Source: Deltaproteobacteria bacterium (GTDB taxonomy: Bacteria > Myxococcota > Myxococcia > Myxococcales > SZAS-1). Taken from it: 64,000 nt of DNA. Position numbers and translations under genes: made by a program. Positions 52,313-63,301 of this stretch are shown here, one piece after another. The stretch spans positions 124,001 to 188,000 of the forward strand of contig JAFEBB010000001.1 in the NCBI GenBank assembly GCA_018266075.1, read 5' to 3'. The notes under the pieces are model-generated. The model ran no database searches, was not told where the DNA came from, and was given only the letters and a program-made list of their open reading frames with translations. Within the stretch, counting starts at the first letter, position 1. Each line of letters begins with the position of its first letter.

Positions 52313-53029
52313 CTAGCGCCTCGCGTGCAGCCCGCACTCCTTGTGCTCGGGCTGCTCCCACCACCAGCGTCCGGCCCTGGCGTCTTCGTACGGCTTCACC
52401 GCGCGAGTACACGGCGCGCAACCAATCGAGGAGAAGCCCACATCGTGGAGCGCGTGGTACGGCACGCGGTTCTGTCGAATGTGGTTCCACACATCGGCTT
52501 CGGTCCACGCGGCGAGCGGATTGAGCTTCCAGATTCCATTCTGCGAATCGTCAATCTCGATGACTTCGACACCCGCGCGCGTCACCGACTGCTCGCGTCG
52601 CAGCCCGGTCACCCACGCCTCACGGCCAGCGAGCGCGCGTTTGAGAGGCTCGACCTTTCGAATGGCGCAGCACGCCTTTCGCTGCTCGAGGCTCTCCCGA
52701 AACGAGTACAGCCCCTGCTCGCTCTCGAGCTTCTCCACGCTGGCGCGCTCGGGCGCGTACACGCGCAGGTTGATTCCATAGCGCTCGCGGATGGCCTGCA
52801 TCACTTCGTACGTCTCGGGATGTAACCTTCCGGTATCAAGCGTAAAGACCTCCAACTTCGGCGTGACGCGCGAAGCGAGATCGATGAGCGCCACGTCCTC
52901 CGCGCCGAAGCTCGAGGCGAGGACTGCCCGAGCCCCAAAGCGCGCCCACGTCCAGGCGAGGATGTCGGGCGCGGATCTTCCTGCCAGCTCGGCGCGCGCA
53001 GCCGAGAGCTCGTCGAGGGCGGCGCTCAC
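52313..53029 (-). CDS. cysH: APS reductase, iron-sulfur type
   Basis: 238 residues from GTG 53029, chosen because it overlaps the sir stop (GTGA) and has GGGGAG at 8 bases; a GTG at 53038 is too close to that site. The enzyme reduces adenylyl sulfate to sulfite with thioredoxin. The PP-loop region SSFGAEDVALIDL, LDTGRLHPETYEVM, and the cluster ligands KACCAIRKVEPL and GCAPCTRAV (CC plus CxxC) mark the [4Fe-4S] APS form rather than PAPS reductases. The C-terminal Cys is in KECGLH. Confidence 0.93.
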   Translation of the reverse strand: MSAALDELSAARAELAGRSAPDILAWTWARFGARAVLASSFGAEDVALIDLASRVTPKLEVFTLDTGRLHPETYEVMQAIRERYGINLRVYAPERASVEKLESEQGLYSFRESLEQRKACCAIRKVEPLKRALAGREAWVTGLRREQSVTRAGVEVIEIDDSQNGIWKLNPLAAWTEADVWNHIRQNRVPYHALHDVGFSSIGCAPCTRAVKPYEDARAGRWWWEQPEHKECGLHARR

Positions 53030-54765
53030 TGGGCGCACTCCCCGTCCATGTCCACGACCTGGAACTCGACGTTGCTTCCGAGGTCGATGAAGTCGTCGGG
53101 CTTGGCGTCGGCCTCTTTGAGCTCGATCAGATCCGCGAGCAGTTGCTTGGCGACGGGAATCTCCAATCGCTGGAAGTACGCGCGCGCGGTCTCTCCAGGC
53201 GTCCGATTCGCGTCGAAGTGTGCAATCAGCCGATCAATGGCTTCAGGCACGCGCCGCGCGGGAACCTTGCCCACGAGCCGTCCGAAGGTGGCGCCGCGCA
53301 CGTCGATGCCGCCGCCAATCATGACGAAGTACTGGGGCACCAACTTCGTCCCCACGTGCCGCGTGCCGCCCTGGAGCCCAATCGCAGAGACATGGTGCTG
53401 CCCGCAGCCGTTGGGACAGCCCGAGACCTTGATGTCGAGGCCTTCTCGTCGCAACGCACCGTGCTTCTCGCGCAACCGGTCGCCCACGAGCTGGGCCACG
53501 CCACGAGAAGCGGTCACCGCGATGCGGCAGGTCTCTGCGCCCGGGCAGCTCACGACATCGGACGTCGAGCCTGCGTGCGGCTCGCCAAGGCCCACGGCGT
53601 CGAGGTCGAGCCAGAGCGCAGGCAGGTCCTGCTCGCGAATCCAGCGGATGAGCAGGTTCTGATCATTCGTGGTGCGCAGCGTCGCGTCGCCGTACTTGGC
53701 AACGATGTCGGCGAGCGCGCGCAGCTGCCGGCTCGAGACATCTCCAAGTCGCAGCCAAACGGCGACTGCACAGTATCCCTCCTGGCGCTGCGGCCGTGCG
53801 TGCGCCCGCTTCCAGTCGGTGAAGCGAGTGGGCATCGGCCGCTCCACGCGCGGAAGCGGCGCCTTGTTGGGCGGCTGCTCGTCGGTCGCTTCAACAGGCA
53901 GCGGCCGCCCGCCCTCCTTTCGAATGAGCTCGAGCTGCTCTTCATAGAGCGCCTGGAACTTCTCCCAGCCCAGGCGCTTGATGGCCCACTTCATCCGCGC
54001 CTTTTGCAAGTTGCCGCGCTCGCCCTCGGCGTTGAAGACACGTGCAATCGCCTCGCACGACGCGAGCAGCTCCTCGGCGGGCAGGAACTCGTGCAGCACG
54101 CCGGCGTTGCGCGGCAGCGTGCTCGTGCCGCCACCGGCGACGATCTTGAACCCGCGAACGCCCTCGCGAACGCGGCCAATGATGCCGATGTCGTTCATGG
54201 CGCCCTGGGCGCAGTCGTCGTCGCAGCCGGAGATCGCAATCTTGAACTTGCGCGGCAAGCCAGAGCCGTAGGGCCGTCGCAGGAAGTGGCGCGTCACCAT
54301 CTCGCCGTAGGGCGTCACGTCGAACGCCGCGCCGCTGCACACGCCCGCGTACGGGCAGCCCGCGACATTGCGCACGGTGTGCGAGCACGCCTCGCGCGTG
54401 GTCAGCCCGCTCCGCGACACCGCTTCCATGAACGCCGGCGCGTGCTCCGTCTTCACGAAGTGAAATTGAAAGTTCTGCCGCGTGGTCACGTGGCCGAACC
54501 CACGCGAGTACTTGTCGGCGCAATCGGCGAGCACCACCAGCTGCTCGGCGCTGAGCACGCCTTGCGGGATCTTCACGCGCACCATCTGCACGCCGTCCTG
54601 GCGCTGGCCGTAGATGCCGCGGCTCAAGCGGTAGTGGCGGTACTGGTCACTGGTCAGCTCGCCGCGCTCGAACTTCTCGAGCATCTCCACGAACTCGGCG
54701 GACTCGGCGGCGTCACCGAAGCTCTCGCGGCTGCGGCTGTCGTTGGCTTCCGGTCTTGCGGTCAT
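53026..54765 (-). CDS. sir: Assimilatory sulfite reductase hemoprotein (ferredoxin/NirA-like)
   Basis: 579 residues of the nitrite/sulfite reductase hemoprotein family. It reduces sulfite to sulfide with six electrons. The two ferredoxin-like halves each have their core (VTTRQNFQFHFV; TTNDQNLLIRWI). The [4Fe-4S]-siroheme ligands are SCPGAETCRIAV and SGCPNGCGQHH. Its context with cysH and siroheme genes supports sulfite over nitrite. The ATG at 54765 has GGAGG upstream. Transcription must pass the attenuator at 54781-54823. Confidence 0.92.
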   Translation of the reverse strand: MTARPEANDSRSRESFGDAAESAEFVEMLEKFERGELTSDQYRHYRLSRGIYGQRQDGVQMVRVKIPQGVLSAEQLVVLADCADKYSRGFGHVTTRQNFQFHFVKTEHAPAFMEAVSRSGLTTREACSHTVRNVAGCPYAGVCSGAAFDVTPYGEMVTRHFLRRPYGSGLPRKFKIAISGCDDDCAQGAMNDIGIIGRVREGVRGFKIVAGGGTSTLPRNAGVLHEFLPAEELLASCEAIARVFNAEGERGNLQKARMKWAIKRLGWEKFQALYEEQLELIRKEGGRPLPVEATDEQPPNKAPLPRVERPMPTRFTDWKRAHARPQRQEGYCAVAVWLRLGDVSSRQLRALADIVAKYGDATLRTTNDQNLLIRWIREQDLPALWLDLDAVGLGEPHAGSTSDVVSCPGAETCRIAVTASRGVAQLVGDRLREKHGALRREGLDIKVSGCPNGCGQHHVSAIGLQGGTRHVGTKLVPQYFVMIGGGIDVRGATFGRLVGKVPARRVPEAIDRLIAHFDANRTPGETARAYFQRLEIPVAKQLLADLIELKEADAKPDDFIDLGSNVEFQVVDMDGECAQ

Positions 54766-54780: not shown

Positions 54781-54823
54781 CAAAAAACAAGAAGGCCCGC
54801 CTCCTTTTCGGGGGCGGGCCTTC
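54781..54823 (-). terminator. Attenuator hairpin of the sir operon leader
   Basis: On the minus strand GAAGGCCCGCC (54823-54813) and GGCGGGCCTTC (54801-54791) form a perfect 11-bp stem with an 11-base loop, followed by TTGTTTTTTG (54790-54781). It lies between the Cys leader ORF and the sir ATG, so it can stop transcription before the operon. The 5' arm can alternatively pair with GGCGGG at 54879-54874 inside the leader ORF. Confidence 0.85.
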
Positions 54824-54848
54824 GGGCACCTTCGAGTGGATTCGCTTT

Positions 54849-54953
54849 TTAGGCGAAGTCTCCCGGTGCTCGTCCCGCCGGACGGCAGCAGCAACACGCA
54901 CAGCAGCAGCAGGCCGCGGTGTGGTCGAAGCTGGTAGCGGAGACGGTTCGCAT
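54849..54953 (-). CDS. Cysteine-run leader peptide of the sir operon
   Basis: 34 codons plus TAA. The peptide begins MRTVSATSFDHTAA, has CCCCACCCC at residues 15-23 and ends RPAGRAPGDFA. Eight Cys codons in nine are TGC or TGT. There is no Shine-Dalgarno, and the ATG is only about 5 bases after the predicted transcription start, so it may be translated as a near-leaderless ORF. The product is unlikely to act as a protein. Stalling at Cys codons when charged tRNA-Cys is low would change folding of the RNA downstream. A second copy of the design lies at 63156-63260. Confidence 0.88.
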   Translation of the reverse strand: MRTVSATSFDHTAACCCCACCCCRPAGRAPGDFA

Positions 54954-54964
54954 CAGGAGCCCAA

Positions 54965-54994
54965 GGAATACGCAGCTCGCACGCGCTGCGTCAA
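54965..54994 (-). promoter_or_regulatory. Sigma-70-type promoter of the sir operon
   Basis: TTGACG (54994-54989), 18-base spacer, TATTCC (54970-54965), then 11 bases to the leader ATG. The same spacings occur at the second leader. Confidence 0.7.
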
Positions 54995-55045: not shown

Positions 55046-56395
55046 CTATCCCACCTTCATCGGCCGGCCCAGCTCTTCCCAGTCGTTCATCCCGCCGCGC
55101 ACGGCCTTCACCTTCTCGTAGCCTTGCGCCTTGAGGAGCAGCAGCGCCGTGAGCGAGCGCTTTCCGGACGCGCAGATGGTGACGAGCGGCTGGTCGTGCC
55201 GCGCCGGAAGGCCTGGCGCCCCGGCTTTGGAGAGCGTCCCCACGGGCACGTTCACCGCCTCGGCGATGTGGCCCTCCGCGAACTCGCGCGGCGAGCGCAC
55301 GTCGATGAGCGCGGCTCCGCCCTTTACCAGATCCGCAATCGCGTCGAGCTCCACCATGTCCGCCGACTCGCGCGCGAGATCCTGGATCGCCGAGAGGATC
55401 TCCGGCGTCGGTCCCGACGACGATGCGGGCTTCGGCGCGTCATCCGCCGACCCCACGAAGAGCTGGGGCAGGTGCTTCTTGAACGAGCCGCTGTACTTGA
55501 AGGCATTGTCCGGGAACATCACCACGCAGATGTTGCCCGGCTCATCGGGCACCAGCTTCAGCGCGCCCGCGAGCGCCATGCCCGAGCTCGGCCCGGCGAT
55601 GATGCTCTCTTCCTGATTCAGGCGCCGCGCCATTTCATAGGCTGTCGCGTTATCGATTTCGACGAGCCCGTCATACTCTTTAGGCAAGAAGAAGTCGGTC
55701 AACTTGAGCGCGCGCAGCGTGCGCACGCCGGGGATGTCGTGCCCCTCGGCAGGGTGCACGCCGAAGACCTTCACGTCCTTGCGCTGCGTGCGCAGGAAGC
55801 GCCCCGTGCCGGTGATGGTGCCGCAGGTGCCAAGCCCGGCCACGAAGTGGGTGATCTTGCCCTCGGTCTGCTTCCACACCTCCGGACCCGTGGTGCGGAA
55901 GTGCGCGTCCGGATTTGCCGGATTCTTATATTGATTGAGCTCGTGCCAGCCAGGCTGCTTCGACATCTCCTCGGCCTTCGACATCGCGCCTTCGGGCTGT
56001 CCCGGCATCGGGCACAGGTCGTCCGAGAGCTCCACCAGCTTCGCGCCGAACATGCGCAGGCTGGCGCGCTTCTCCGCGGGGATTGCGGTCGAGAGCGTGG
56101 CCGTGAACTCGATGCCCTTGGCGTTCGAGATCATCGAGAGCCCGATGCCGGTGTTTCCCGAGGTCGGCTCCACGAGGTGCTGGAGCTTGATGCCCTGCTC
56201 TTCCGCGTCGCGGATGAGGTTGGCGGCCACGCGATCCTTCACGGCGCCGAAGGGGTTGTACCACTCGAGCTTGGCGTAGACCTTCGTGTGCTTGAACGGC
56301 ACCACGCGGTTGAGCCGCACGATGGGCGTGGGGTTGTCGGCGTTCGACAGCATGTCGAGCATCGAGTCGTAGACGCGCTTGGAAAAGTCAGTCAT
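55046..56395 (-). CDS. Cysteine synthase/cystathionine beta-synthase fused to rhodanese
   Basis: 449 residues. Residues 1-325 are a fold-type II PLP enzyme: WYNPFGAVKDRVAAN (Schiff-base Lys), EPTSGNTGIGLSM (substrate loop), GLGTCGTITGTGRFL (phosphate cradle) and GPSSGMALAGA. Residues about 350-449 are a rhodanese domain with LIDVRSPREFAEGHI and the active loop ICASGKRS (Cys nucleophile). The PLP part would join sulfide with O-acetyl- or O-phosphoserine. The rhodanese could deliver or remove sulfane sulfur. AGGAG precedes the ATG. Confidence 0.87.
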   Translation of the reverse strand: MTDFSKRVYDSMLDMLSNADNPTPIVRLNRVVPFKHTKVYAKLEWYNPFGAVKDRVAANLIRDAEEQGIKLQHLVEPTSGNTGIGLSMISNAKGIEFTATLSTAIPAEKRASLRMFGAKLVELSDDLCPMPGQPEGAMSKAEEMSKQPGWHELNQYKNPANPDAHFRTTGPEVWKQTEGKITHFVAGLGTCGTITGTGRFLRTQRKDVKVFGVHPAEGHDIPGVRTLRALKLTDFFLPKEYDGLVEIDNATAYEMARRLNQEESIIAGPSSGMALAGALKLVPDEPGNICVVMFPDNAFKYSGSFKKHLPQLFVGSADDAPKPASSSGPTPEILSAIQDLARESADMVELDAIADLVKGGAALIDVRSPREFAEGHIAEAVNVPVGTLSKAGAPGLPARHDQPLVTICASGKRSLTALLLLKAQGYEKVKAVRGGMNDWEELGRPMKVG

Positions 56396-56468
56396 GTGCG
56401 GCTCCTGCAAATTCGTAACGTCGGCCTTGCATCAGGTCGCGGAGGTGCGAGGGCGAGACGTTGGGCAT
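56388..56468 (-). CDS. Possible 26-codon upstream ORF of the cysteine synthase gene
   Basis: MPNVSPSHLRDLMQG then RRYEFAGAAHD, with GAAGGGCGG upstream. Its stop lies 5 bases inside the cysteine synthase start (ATGACTGA overlap), so translation of the two would be coupled. It is the first ORF after the predicted promoter. It is not Cys-rich. It may be a regulatory leader or simply chance. Confidence 0.4.
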   Translation of the reverse strand: MPNVSPSHLRDLMQGRRYEFAGAAHD

Positions 56469-62168: not shown

Positions 62169-62636
62169 TCAGCCGCACGTCTCGGGCTTGACCTCGGACG
62201 TCACCTCGAATGCCGGCTGCGACTCCGGCACGACGCGCTCGAAGAGGGAGTGCGCAACCATCCCCACGGCCATCGCGGCCACGAAGAGCAGCGCCGCAGG
62301 GCAGCCCGCACCGAAGGCGACGATCCCCGGGCCCGGGCAGAAGCCGCCCAGTCCCCAGCCGATGCCGAAGATCGCCGCGCCTGTCACGAGCCGCGTGTCG
62401 ATGCCACGCGCAGCCGGCTCGGCGAATGAGGCGGCGAGCAGCGGTCGCTTGGGCGCGAGCAGACGCATCACCGCCAGCACCGCCAGCCCGGAGCCCATCA
62501 CCAGCGCCAGGCTCGGGTCCCAGCTGCCGGTGACGTCGAGGAAGGCGAGGATGTTGGCGGGCAGGGTCATGCCCGAGACCGCGAGCCCCACGGCGAAAAG
62601 GAGCCCACTCGCAAACGCCACGATCAGGTTCTTCAC
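62169..62636 (-). CDS. YeeE/YedE-type sulfur transporter, second half (DUF6691-like)
   Basis: 155 residues. The GTG start overlaps the stop of the first half (GTGA). It has four or so membrane segments (LIVAFASGLLFAVGLAVSGM, GAAIFGIGWGLGGFCPGPGI, AALLFVAAMAVGMVAHSLF) and Cys in GGFCPGPG and GAGCPAALL, as in the second repeat of YeeE proteins. The polar tail holds a final Cys. With the upstream subunit it should form one pore for a sulfur species such as thiosulfate. Confidence 0.85.
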   Translation of the reverse strand: MKNLIVAFASGLLFAVGLAVSGMTLPANILAFLDVTGSWDPSLALVMGSGLAVLAVMRLLAPKRPLLAASFAEPAARGIDTRLVTGAAIFGIGWGLGGFCPGPGIVAFGAGCPAALLFVAAMAVGMVAHSLFERVVPESQPAFEVTSEVKPETCG

Positions 62637-63076
62637 GCGGCACCTCCCAGCGCGTGCCGCAGCACGAAGACGGCCACCATCCCCAGCGCCATGAACACCA
62701 GCGTGGCCACGATGGAGCGCCCCGAGAGCCGACTGATGCCACAGAGCCCGTGGCCGCTGGTGCAGCCGCTGCCGAGCCGCGTCCCGAAGCCGACGAGCAA
62801 TCCCGAGGCGATGAGCAGCGCGCTCGAGTGCGGCACGTCCCAAGTGAAGAAGCGCGGCGCGAGCCGGCTCAGCACCAGACCGCCGAGCGCGAGCCCGCCG
62901 AGGAAGGCGCTGCGCCAGGGCAGGTCCGGGCGATCGAGCTCCAGCACGCCGCCGAAGATCCCGCTGATGCCCGCGGCGCGACCGTTGAGCACCCACAGGC
63001 CCGCGACCGCCAGGCCGGTGAGCACGCCTCCCACGGCCGCCGGGACCAGGTGAGATGTAACCGTTGGGTTGAGCAT
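62633..63076 (-). CDS. YeeE/YedE-type sulfur transporter, first half
   Basis: 147 residues from ATG 63076 (AGGAG at 8 bases). It has membrane segments AAVGGVLTGLAVAGLWVLNG, FLGGLALGGLVLSRL, SSALLIASGLLVGFG and IVATLVFMALGMVAVFVL. The family signature is GTRLGSGCTSGHGLCGISRLS, with the Cys used in YeeE/TsuA to pass thiosulfate. Single-chain YeeE proteins are about twice this length; here two genes encode the halves. It is expressed after a Cys leader peptide. Confidence 0.88.
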   Translation of the reverse strand: MLNPTVTSHLVPAAVGGVLTGLAVAGLWVLNGRAAGISGIFGGVLELDRPDLPWRSAFLGGLALGGLVLSRLAPRFFTWDVPHSSALLIASGLLVGFGTRLGSGCTSGHGLCGISRLSGRSIVATLVFMALGMVAVFVLRHALGGAA

Positions 63077-63089
63077 CGATTCGACTCCT

Positions 63090-63128
63090 GAAACGCAGAA
63101 GGCCCGCCTCCTCGTGGGTGGCGGGCCT
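63090..63128 (-). terminator. Attenuator hairpin of the YeeE operon leader
   Basis: On the minus strand AGGCCCGCC (63128-63120) and GGCGGGCCT (63108-63100) pair over 9 bp with an 11-base loop, followed by TCTGCGTTTC. The stem and the AGGAGGCGGGCCTTCT string match the sir attenuator, but the U-tract is weaker. Confidence 0.72.
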
Positions 63129-63155
63129 CGGGGTCCTTCGGGATTCGCTTTGCGG

Positions 63156-63260
63156 TTACGCGAAAGGTCCCGATGCCCGGCCCGCCGGCCAGCAACAGAG
63201 ACACGCACAGCAGCGACAAGCCGCGGTGGAGCCCTTGCTGGTGGCGGAAACGGGAGTCAT
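63156..63260 (-). CDS. Cysteine-rich leader peptide of the YeeE operon
   Basis: 34 codons plus TAA. It begins MTPVSATSKGSTAA, has CRCCACLCC at residues 15-23 and ends WPAGRASGPFA. It aligns without gaps to the sir leader: VSATS, TAAC, CAC, CC, PAGRA, G and FA are shared. Six of nine central codons are Cys. There is no Shine-Dalgarno, and the ATG is 11 bases from the -10. The same reading as for the sir leader applies, namely a sensor of cysteine supply. Confidence 0.87.
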   Translation of the reverse strand: MTPVSATSKGSTAACRCCACLCCWPAGRASGPFA

Positions 63261-63271
63261 CGGTTGCTCAA

Positions 63272-63301
63272 AGGCTAGGTGGCGCGTCGGCCTGGCGTCA
63301 A
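63272..63301 (-). promoter_or_regulatory. Sigma-70-type promoter of the YeeE operon
   Basis: TTGACG (63301-63296), 18-base spacer, TAGCCT (63277-63272), then 11 bases to the leader ATG. This is the same geometry as the sir promoter. Confidence 0.68.

Follow-up and report, generated by a model that had tools for sequence, protein, structure and literature searches.

Two short open reading frames in the window, i.e. the whole 64,000-nt stretch of Myxococcota DNA analysed here, are with high probability the leader peptides of classical ribosome-mediated transcription attenuators for cysteine, one preceding a cysI-like gene and the other a sulfur transport gene. The window by itself is weak evidence for this reading, and it is the comparative data that make the case. 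From the sequence parts, their recurrence in other genomes, their conservation at the RNA level and their coevolution we infer that the ribosome stalls, that cysteine is the signal and that termination and readthrough occur in the cell.

Leaders, terminators and alternative stems in the window

All features of the window described below lie on its (-) strand. Leader peptide 1 (54953-54849, MRTVSATSFDHTAACCCCACCCCRPAGRAPGDFA) and leader peptide 2 (63260-63156, MTPVSATSKGSTAACRCCACLCCWPAGRASGPFA) each comprise 34 amino acids and, as is characteristic of attenuators, are rich in codons for the regulated amino acid, i.e. they contain 8 and 6 Cys codons, respectively. The sensing region of leader 1 would be the Cys codon run at codons 15-23 (54885-54911, CCCCACCCC). 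Both leaders are colinear paralogues with 24 of 34 residues in common and with a nucleotide identity of 74% over the ORF and 39% from the stop codon to the terminator; they are the only clear copies in their own genome and are located on the same contig. A putative σ70 promoter (TTGACG-N17-GTATTCC, 54965-54994) ends 11 nt before the ATG of leader 1, and a putative promoter of leader 2 (TTGACG-N17-CTAGCCT, 63272-63301) lies 11 nt 5' of its ATG. These positions suggest that the 5' UTR comprises a few nt and that the leader ORFs are nearly leaderless. Leader 1 is followed by the cysI-like sulfite reductase gene (53026-54765, NIR_SIR domain) as first gene of its operon and then by cysH (52313-53038, PAPS_reduct domain), and a gene for a YeeE/YedE-type sulfur transport protein (62633-63076, Sulf_transp domain) stands under leader 2. 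The gene directly 5' of leader 1 (55046-56410) codes for a PALP enzyme of the cysteine synthase or CBS type with a fused rhodanese domain; in genome G007 a PALP gene related to this fusion has a Cys attenuator of its own (L243).

Each leader is succeeded by a terminator hairpin, located at 54791-54823 in leader 1 (an intrinsic terminator of -27.4 kcal/mol, followed by TTGTTTTTTG) and at 63099-63129 in leader 2 (-23.0 kcal/mol). According to the first-pass annotation, the GGCGGG element spelled by codons 25-27 (CCG GCG GGA in leader 1, CCG GCG GGC in leader 2) pairs with the 5' arm of the terminator to form an antiterminator. Both partners are indeed present in leader 1 (GGCGGG at 54879-54874, CCCGCC at 54818-54813), as is the longer match in leader 2, where GGCGGGCC (63186-63179) can pair over all its 8 nt with GGCCCGCC (63127-63120). 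The pairing is, however, only the base of a longer stem of three helices, the interior ones of which carry the coevolution signal. In leader 1 the complete antiterminator stem (54813-54879, predicted fold of -29.7 kcal/mol) is composed of the basal helix GGCGGG:CCCGCC, with the element as its 5' strand, and the helices GCACC (54869-54865):GGTGC (54830-54826) and TTCGC (54857-54853):GCGAA (54845-54841), so that the stop codon sits near the apical loop. The antiterminator of leader 2 (63120-63186, -39.6 kcal/mol) combines the 8-nt pairing with interior helices.

In GC-rich sequence such complementarity is not rare: a 6-nt match to the terminator arm is found in 11% of the shuffled tails of leader 1 and in 7% of 36-nt windows, and an 8-nt match as in leader 2 in ~1% of shuffles and 0.25% of windows. 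Taken alone, the leader 1 pairing is within chance and that of leader 2 is borderline. Similarly, the antiterminator of leader 1 is matched in stability by 61% of its synonymous recodings (z +0.33), and 6% of the recodings of leader 2 reach the stability of the native one. Moreover, covariation is unprovable from the window since it holds two paralogues with two differing pairs.

Relatives across Myxococcota and conservation at the RNA level

When the leader 1 peptide and a profile of both leaders were used as queries, clear matches were confined to the own genome, the many weak ones being chance-like, and a pattern scan of genome contigs gave matches of the chance kind alone among the matches listed. 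Reading the regions upstream of cysI in 195 Myxococcota genomes revealed the first relative (L159), patterns combining poly-Cys and a terminator revealed L179, L180 and L237-L243 (a CCCCAC pattern mostly hit long coding frames, L179 and L180 being the clear leaders among the matches listed), and reading upstream of cysH matches brought the number to about 30 leaders in total. In all, 36 further Cys-codon leaders are found in Myxococcota, 5' of cysH, cysI or a cysK/CBS-like gene. A covariance-model search gave seven more leaders upstream of cysK (L347-L353, Myxococcaceae), which constitute a third type of site and combine a poly-Cys leader (MSLPLPTTGAQCCCCRVACACCCLAGPEHWESA) with the same element. 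In the final set, 38 Cys leaders are each accompanied by a terminator; they come from the window's own family, from several genera of f3, and from f7 and f8, and represent far fewer independent cases as many of the relatives diverged recently. A covariance model built without the window gave its best score within it to leader 1 (35.4 bits, E 1.9e-6), followed by leader 2 (21.1 bits, E 0.005). The genes behind these leaders, i.e. cysI, cysH, cysK, the cysK/CBS-like gene and the sulfur transporter, make or import the amino acid that would be sensed, as is typical of attenuators.

Each of the 38 leaders has a Cys run, and all of them share one and the same terminator 5' arm, GGCCCGCC. The GCGG core of the element is likewise present in 38/38, mostly as GGCGGG, and a long stem closed by GGCGGG...GGCCCGCC is predicted in every lineage examined, with energies of -29 to -47 kcal/mol for the antiterminators and -18 to -34 kcal/mol for the terminators. 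The element is, however, read in all three codon phases: phase 3 is used in the window (P-A-G), L159, L243, L290/L291 and the cysK leaders (L-A-G), phase 1 in the cysH leaders of Myxococcaceae (G-G), and phase 2 in f7 (W-R-S), so that the surrounding peptides differ (P-A-G-R, G-G-C-R, W-R-S-G, V-A-D-R). As the element always faces an identical arm, it is the nucleotides and not the residues that are conserved, in line with the earlier proposal that the GGCGGG pairing explains the conserved leader residues. In f7 and f8 the pairing continues beyond its opposite end (GUGGCGG:CCGCCAC and GGUGGCGG:CCGCCACC), in agreement with the ACC that comes next in their terminators. GGCGGG was not found to change freely among the leaders.

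Column-wise covariation on MAFFT alignments is uninformative for these leaders, since there is no variation in the basal helix and the middle regions are of unequal length. It was therefore replaced by an alignment-free swap test, in which leader halves were joined to foreign downstream halves in 20,000 permutations. Native combinations are more stable than swapped ones (mean of -36.8 versus -31.2 kcal/mol), with 0/20,000 permutations as good (p<5e-5), whether the test is run on 16 representatives or on 9 deep lineages. The signal is carried by the interior helices, which on their own give -19.1 versus -14.1 kcal/mol (p<5e-5); the basal helix alone gives -17.1 versus -16.5 kcal/mol (p 0.026 for the 16 representatives, 0.078 for the 9 lineages). 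In addition, most relatives have an antiterminator that becomes weaker upon synonymous recoding (z mostly -1.3 to -4.3). Terminator and antiterminator are mutually exclusive and the latter coevolves, as is the case for the alternative structures of attenuators. That the basal pairing itself covaries was not borne out: it is invariant, and the six of 28 aligned rows that vary do so at end positions and without compensation. Support for the basal helix thus comes from its invariance across codon phases and not from covariation.

These data bear on two other readings of the leaders. P-A-G(-R-A) might be kept for the sake of the peptide, which could, for instance, function as a small protein or as an arrest peptide, the GC-rich complementarity being incidental. 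The residues shared by leaders 1 and 2 and the ease with which the peptide and codon usage of leader 1 give equally good folds would fit this view, but GGCGGG or its core is found in all three codon phases within different peptides, the swap test detects coevolution beyond chance, and the peptide profile had no clear relatives outside the own genome, whereas the RNA model connects leader groups that the profile did not. We consider this reading very improbable, and pure peptide conservation was set aside on account of the three codon phases. Hardly more probable is a cysteine attenuator that acts via translation, i.e. by uncovering a Shine-Dalgarno sequence, or via Rho, with no role for an intrinsic terminator. 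Such a mode of action has been proposed for mycobacterial cys uORFs, which are presented as lacking clear terminators and as cases of translation attenuation (PMC1262725, PMC13236596), and the terminator of leader 1 ends ~16 nt from the start codon of cysI, which would be in line with this idea. Nevertheless, 38/38 proximal leaders have, at a similar place, a strong GC hairpin with a run rich in T behind it, and the 5' arm of this hairpin is the exact partner of the antiterminator, which argues against such a mode. A riboswitch, including a T-box or S-box (SAM) element, was also rejected: no Rfam covariance model matched, and it would leave the Cys codons unexplained.

Several loci depart from the common layout. 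In G048 (L158:1-900) the ORF upstream of cysI, MVRVDALAYPAAAQRCRCACRQGAAPEFAAS, has three Cys codons and no clear terminator and is possibly a decaying leader. The proximal leader of G150 (L274) contains twelve consecutive Cys codons (MSHFSLTTRAVSVLGAGDVCVCCCCCCCCCCCCACPSGGCRASGSA), a run that looks like a TGC repeat expansion. Finally, in other genera of f3 (L250, L254, L257, L269, L282, L283) the terminator before cysH is mostly kept without a Cys-rich leader, and some of these loci have an inverted motif such as CCGCCATATTGGCG close to the promoter, which suggests that a protein regulator has replaced the attenuator there.

Modelled ribosome stalling and the proposed switch

The effect of a stalled ribosome was modelled with its edge 10-14 nt beyond the first A-site base and with the RNA folded up to the terminator loop. 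In these calculations, which are thermodynamic sketches, the basal pairing probability of leader 1 lies mostly at 0.65-1.0 when one of the Cys codons 17-22 occupies the A site, drops to 0-0.19 for a stall at the last Cys codon, and is 0 both with the ribosome at the stop codon and without a ribosome. The low value at the last Cys codon arises because the ribosome covers GGCGGG, and thus the effective stalls in leader 1 would be earlier, at about codons 16-22. The earlier idea that a stall on Cys frees GGCGGG therefore agrees with the folding for the middle Cys codons, but not for the last one in leader 1. Representative Myxococcaceae leaders mostly behave like leader 1, and several keep the antiterminator in untranslated RNA. 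Switching by leader translation is likewise reproduced in part, i.e. leader 1 has no antiterminator with the ribosome at the stop codon, but leader 2 is not clearly switched in the model, as its antiterminator, like those of L287, L159 and partly L179, is still possible in that state. When the whole terminator is included at equilibrium, the terminator wins almost everywhere; hence the switch must be kinetic.

We propose that both leaders control transcription by ribosome-mediated attenuation and respond to the level of charged cysteinyl-tRNA. With ample cysteine the ribosome would pass the Cys codons and reach the stop codon, where it would mask the 5' side of each interior antiterminator helix; GGCGGG would be kept in or near a local hairpin, and the terminator GGCCCGCC...GGCGGGCC would form ahead of the sulfur gene. 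If Cys-tRNA is short, the ribosome would halt in the Cys run, in leader 1 best at about codons 16-22, leaving GGCGGG and all RNA downstream of it free. This RNA could then fold into the long antiterminator with GGCGGG:CCCGCC at its base, which would remove the 5' arm from the terminator, prevent termination and allow RNA polymerase to proceed into cysI or the YeeE gene.

The part of the local hairpin in this scheme is tentative. The 1:2 hairpin CGTCC-GGCG-GGACG of leader 1 (54884-54871) and its counterpart TGGCC-GGCG-GGCCG in leader 2 (63191-63178) can be seen in the sequence, together with the U-A/G-C and C-G/U-G differences between them that had been taken as covariation. Covariation does not support the fold, as 0 pairs are changed on both sides in 28 relatives and 500/500 shuffles are as good. 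It is quite possible, though we lean against it, that no protector is needed, in which case the hairpin would simply reflect GC-rich coding sequence, and a ribosome that has reached the stop codon would suffice to block the interior helices. Such a view would account for the missing double changes, for the mean z of only -0.68 against synonymous recoding and for the near absence of the hairpin in the f7 leaders; yet most leaders are predicted to form a hairpin of 4-5 bp that covers the element, in L271 in a shifted register and in L265 and L289 with G-U pairs. The local hairpin may be real despite the absent covariation.

Known systems, putative tandem attenuators and implications

In the trp, his, leu and ilv leaders of enterobacteria a short ORF with codons for the end product is combined with alternative 1:2, 2:3 and 3:4 pairings; these classical attenuators have an intrinsic terminator, and their stop codon lies between the codon run and the terminator. 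The leaders described here share this anatomy, but they would sense cysteine, belong to another phylum, are predicted to form a long three-helix antiterminator around the stop codon, have a nearly leaderless ORF and occur as tandem copies in Myxococcaceae.

Regulatory leaders with Cys codons have been predicted before. The uORFC-8-2 motif 5' of cysS in Rhodobacterales has been predicted to attenuate transcription by means of Cys codons and an intrinsic terminator, and by its description in PMC8632094 it differs in being found in Alphaproteobacteria before cysS alone and in having a tandem pair of Cys codons within its first stem. The mycobacterial polycysteine uORFs, in contrast, are candidates for which PMC1262725 gives no conserved terminator, they are treated as translation attenuation in PMC13236596, and they are leaderless (Canestrari et al. 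2020, as cited in PMC7790235). As far as these descriptions allow a comparison, they resemble our leaders in the poly-Cys ORF, the cys operon and the (near-)leaderless initiation with a short predicted 5' UTR, and the strong conserved terminators set our leaders apart from this type with its translational control. No family in Rfam or NCBIfam matches the element, and a literature search on Myxococcus attenuation, leader peptides and cysteine gave no relevant paper. Very probably, the cysteine leaders of Myxococcota are a new family within a known kind of switch.

In Myxococcaceae a distal Cys leader (about MTHSTPTAALFRCRCCRSCACCALSGLGC) with its own terminator and a proximal GGCGGG leader are arranged in series before cysH (L262, cysH strand, bases ~1000-1500; L255, L256, L266-L268, L277, L279, L281, L286-L289, L293-L299). 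The antiterminator of the distal leader pairs GGGCCTGGGC with an GCCCGGCCC arm (swap test p 0.028), and the distal terminator appears degraded in several genomes. The promoter layout of the window leaders recurs in 5 proximal and ~30 distal leaders; most distal cysH leaders have a TTGACG-N17-(TA-containing hexamer) that ends ~7-14 nt 5' of their start. It may be, and we give this about even weight, that a Myxococcota-wide family of near-leaderless cysteine attenuators governs cysH, cysI, cysK, CBS-like and YeeE operons, and that the two in series before cysH of Myxococcaceae provide a steeper or two-step response to cysteine.

The proposed switch would add a terminator-based cysteine attenuator system to a phylum for which the literature searched contains no such report, and the bases and codons named here allow a direct test. 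The constancy of GGCGGG across reading frames offers a way to distinguish conservation at the RNA level from that at the peptide level in leader peptides, and the tandem attenuators before cysH of Myxococcaceae would be a simple case in which to study why a cell places two sensors for one amino acid one after the other.
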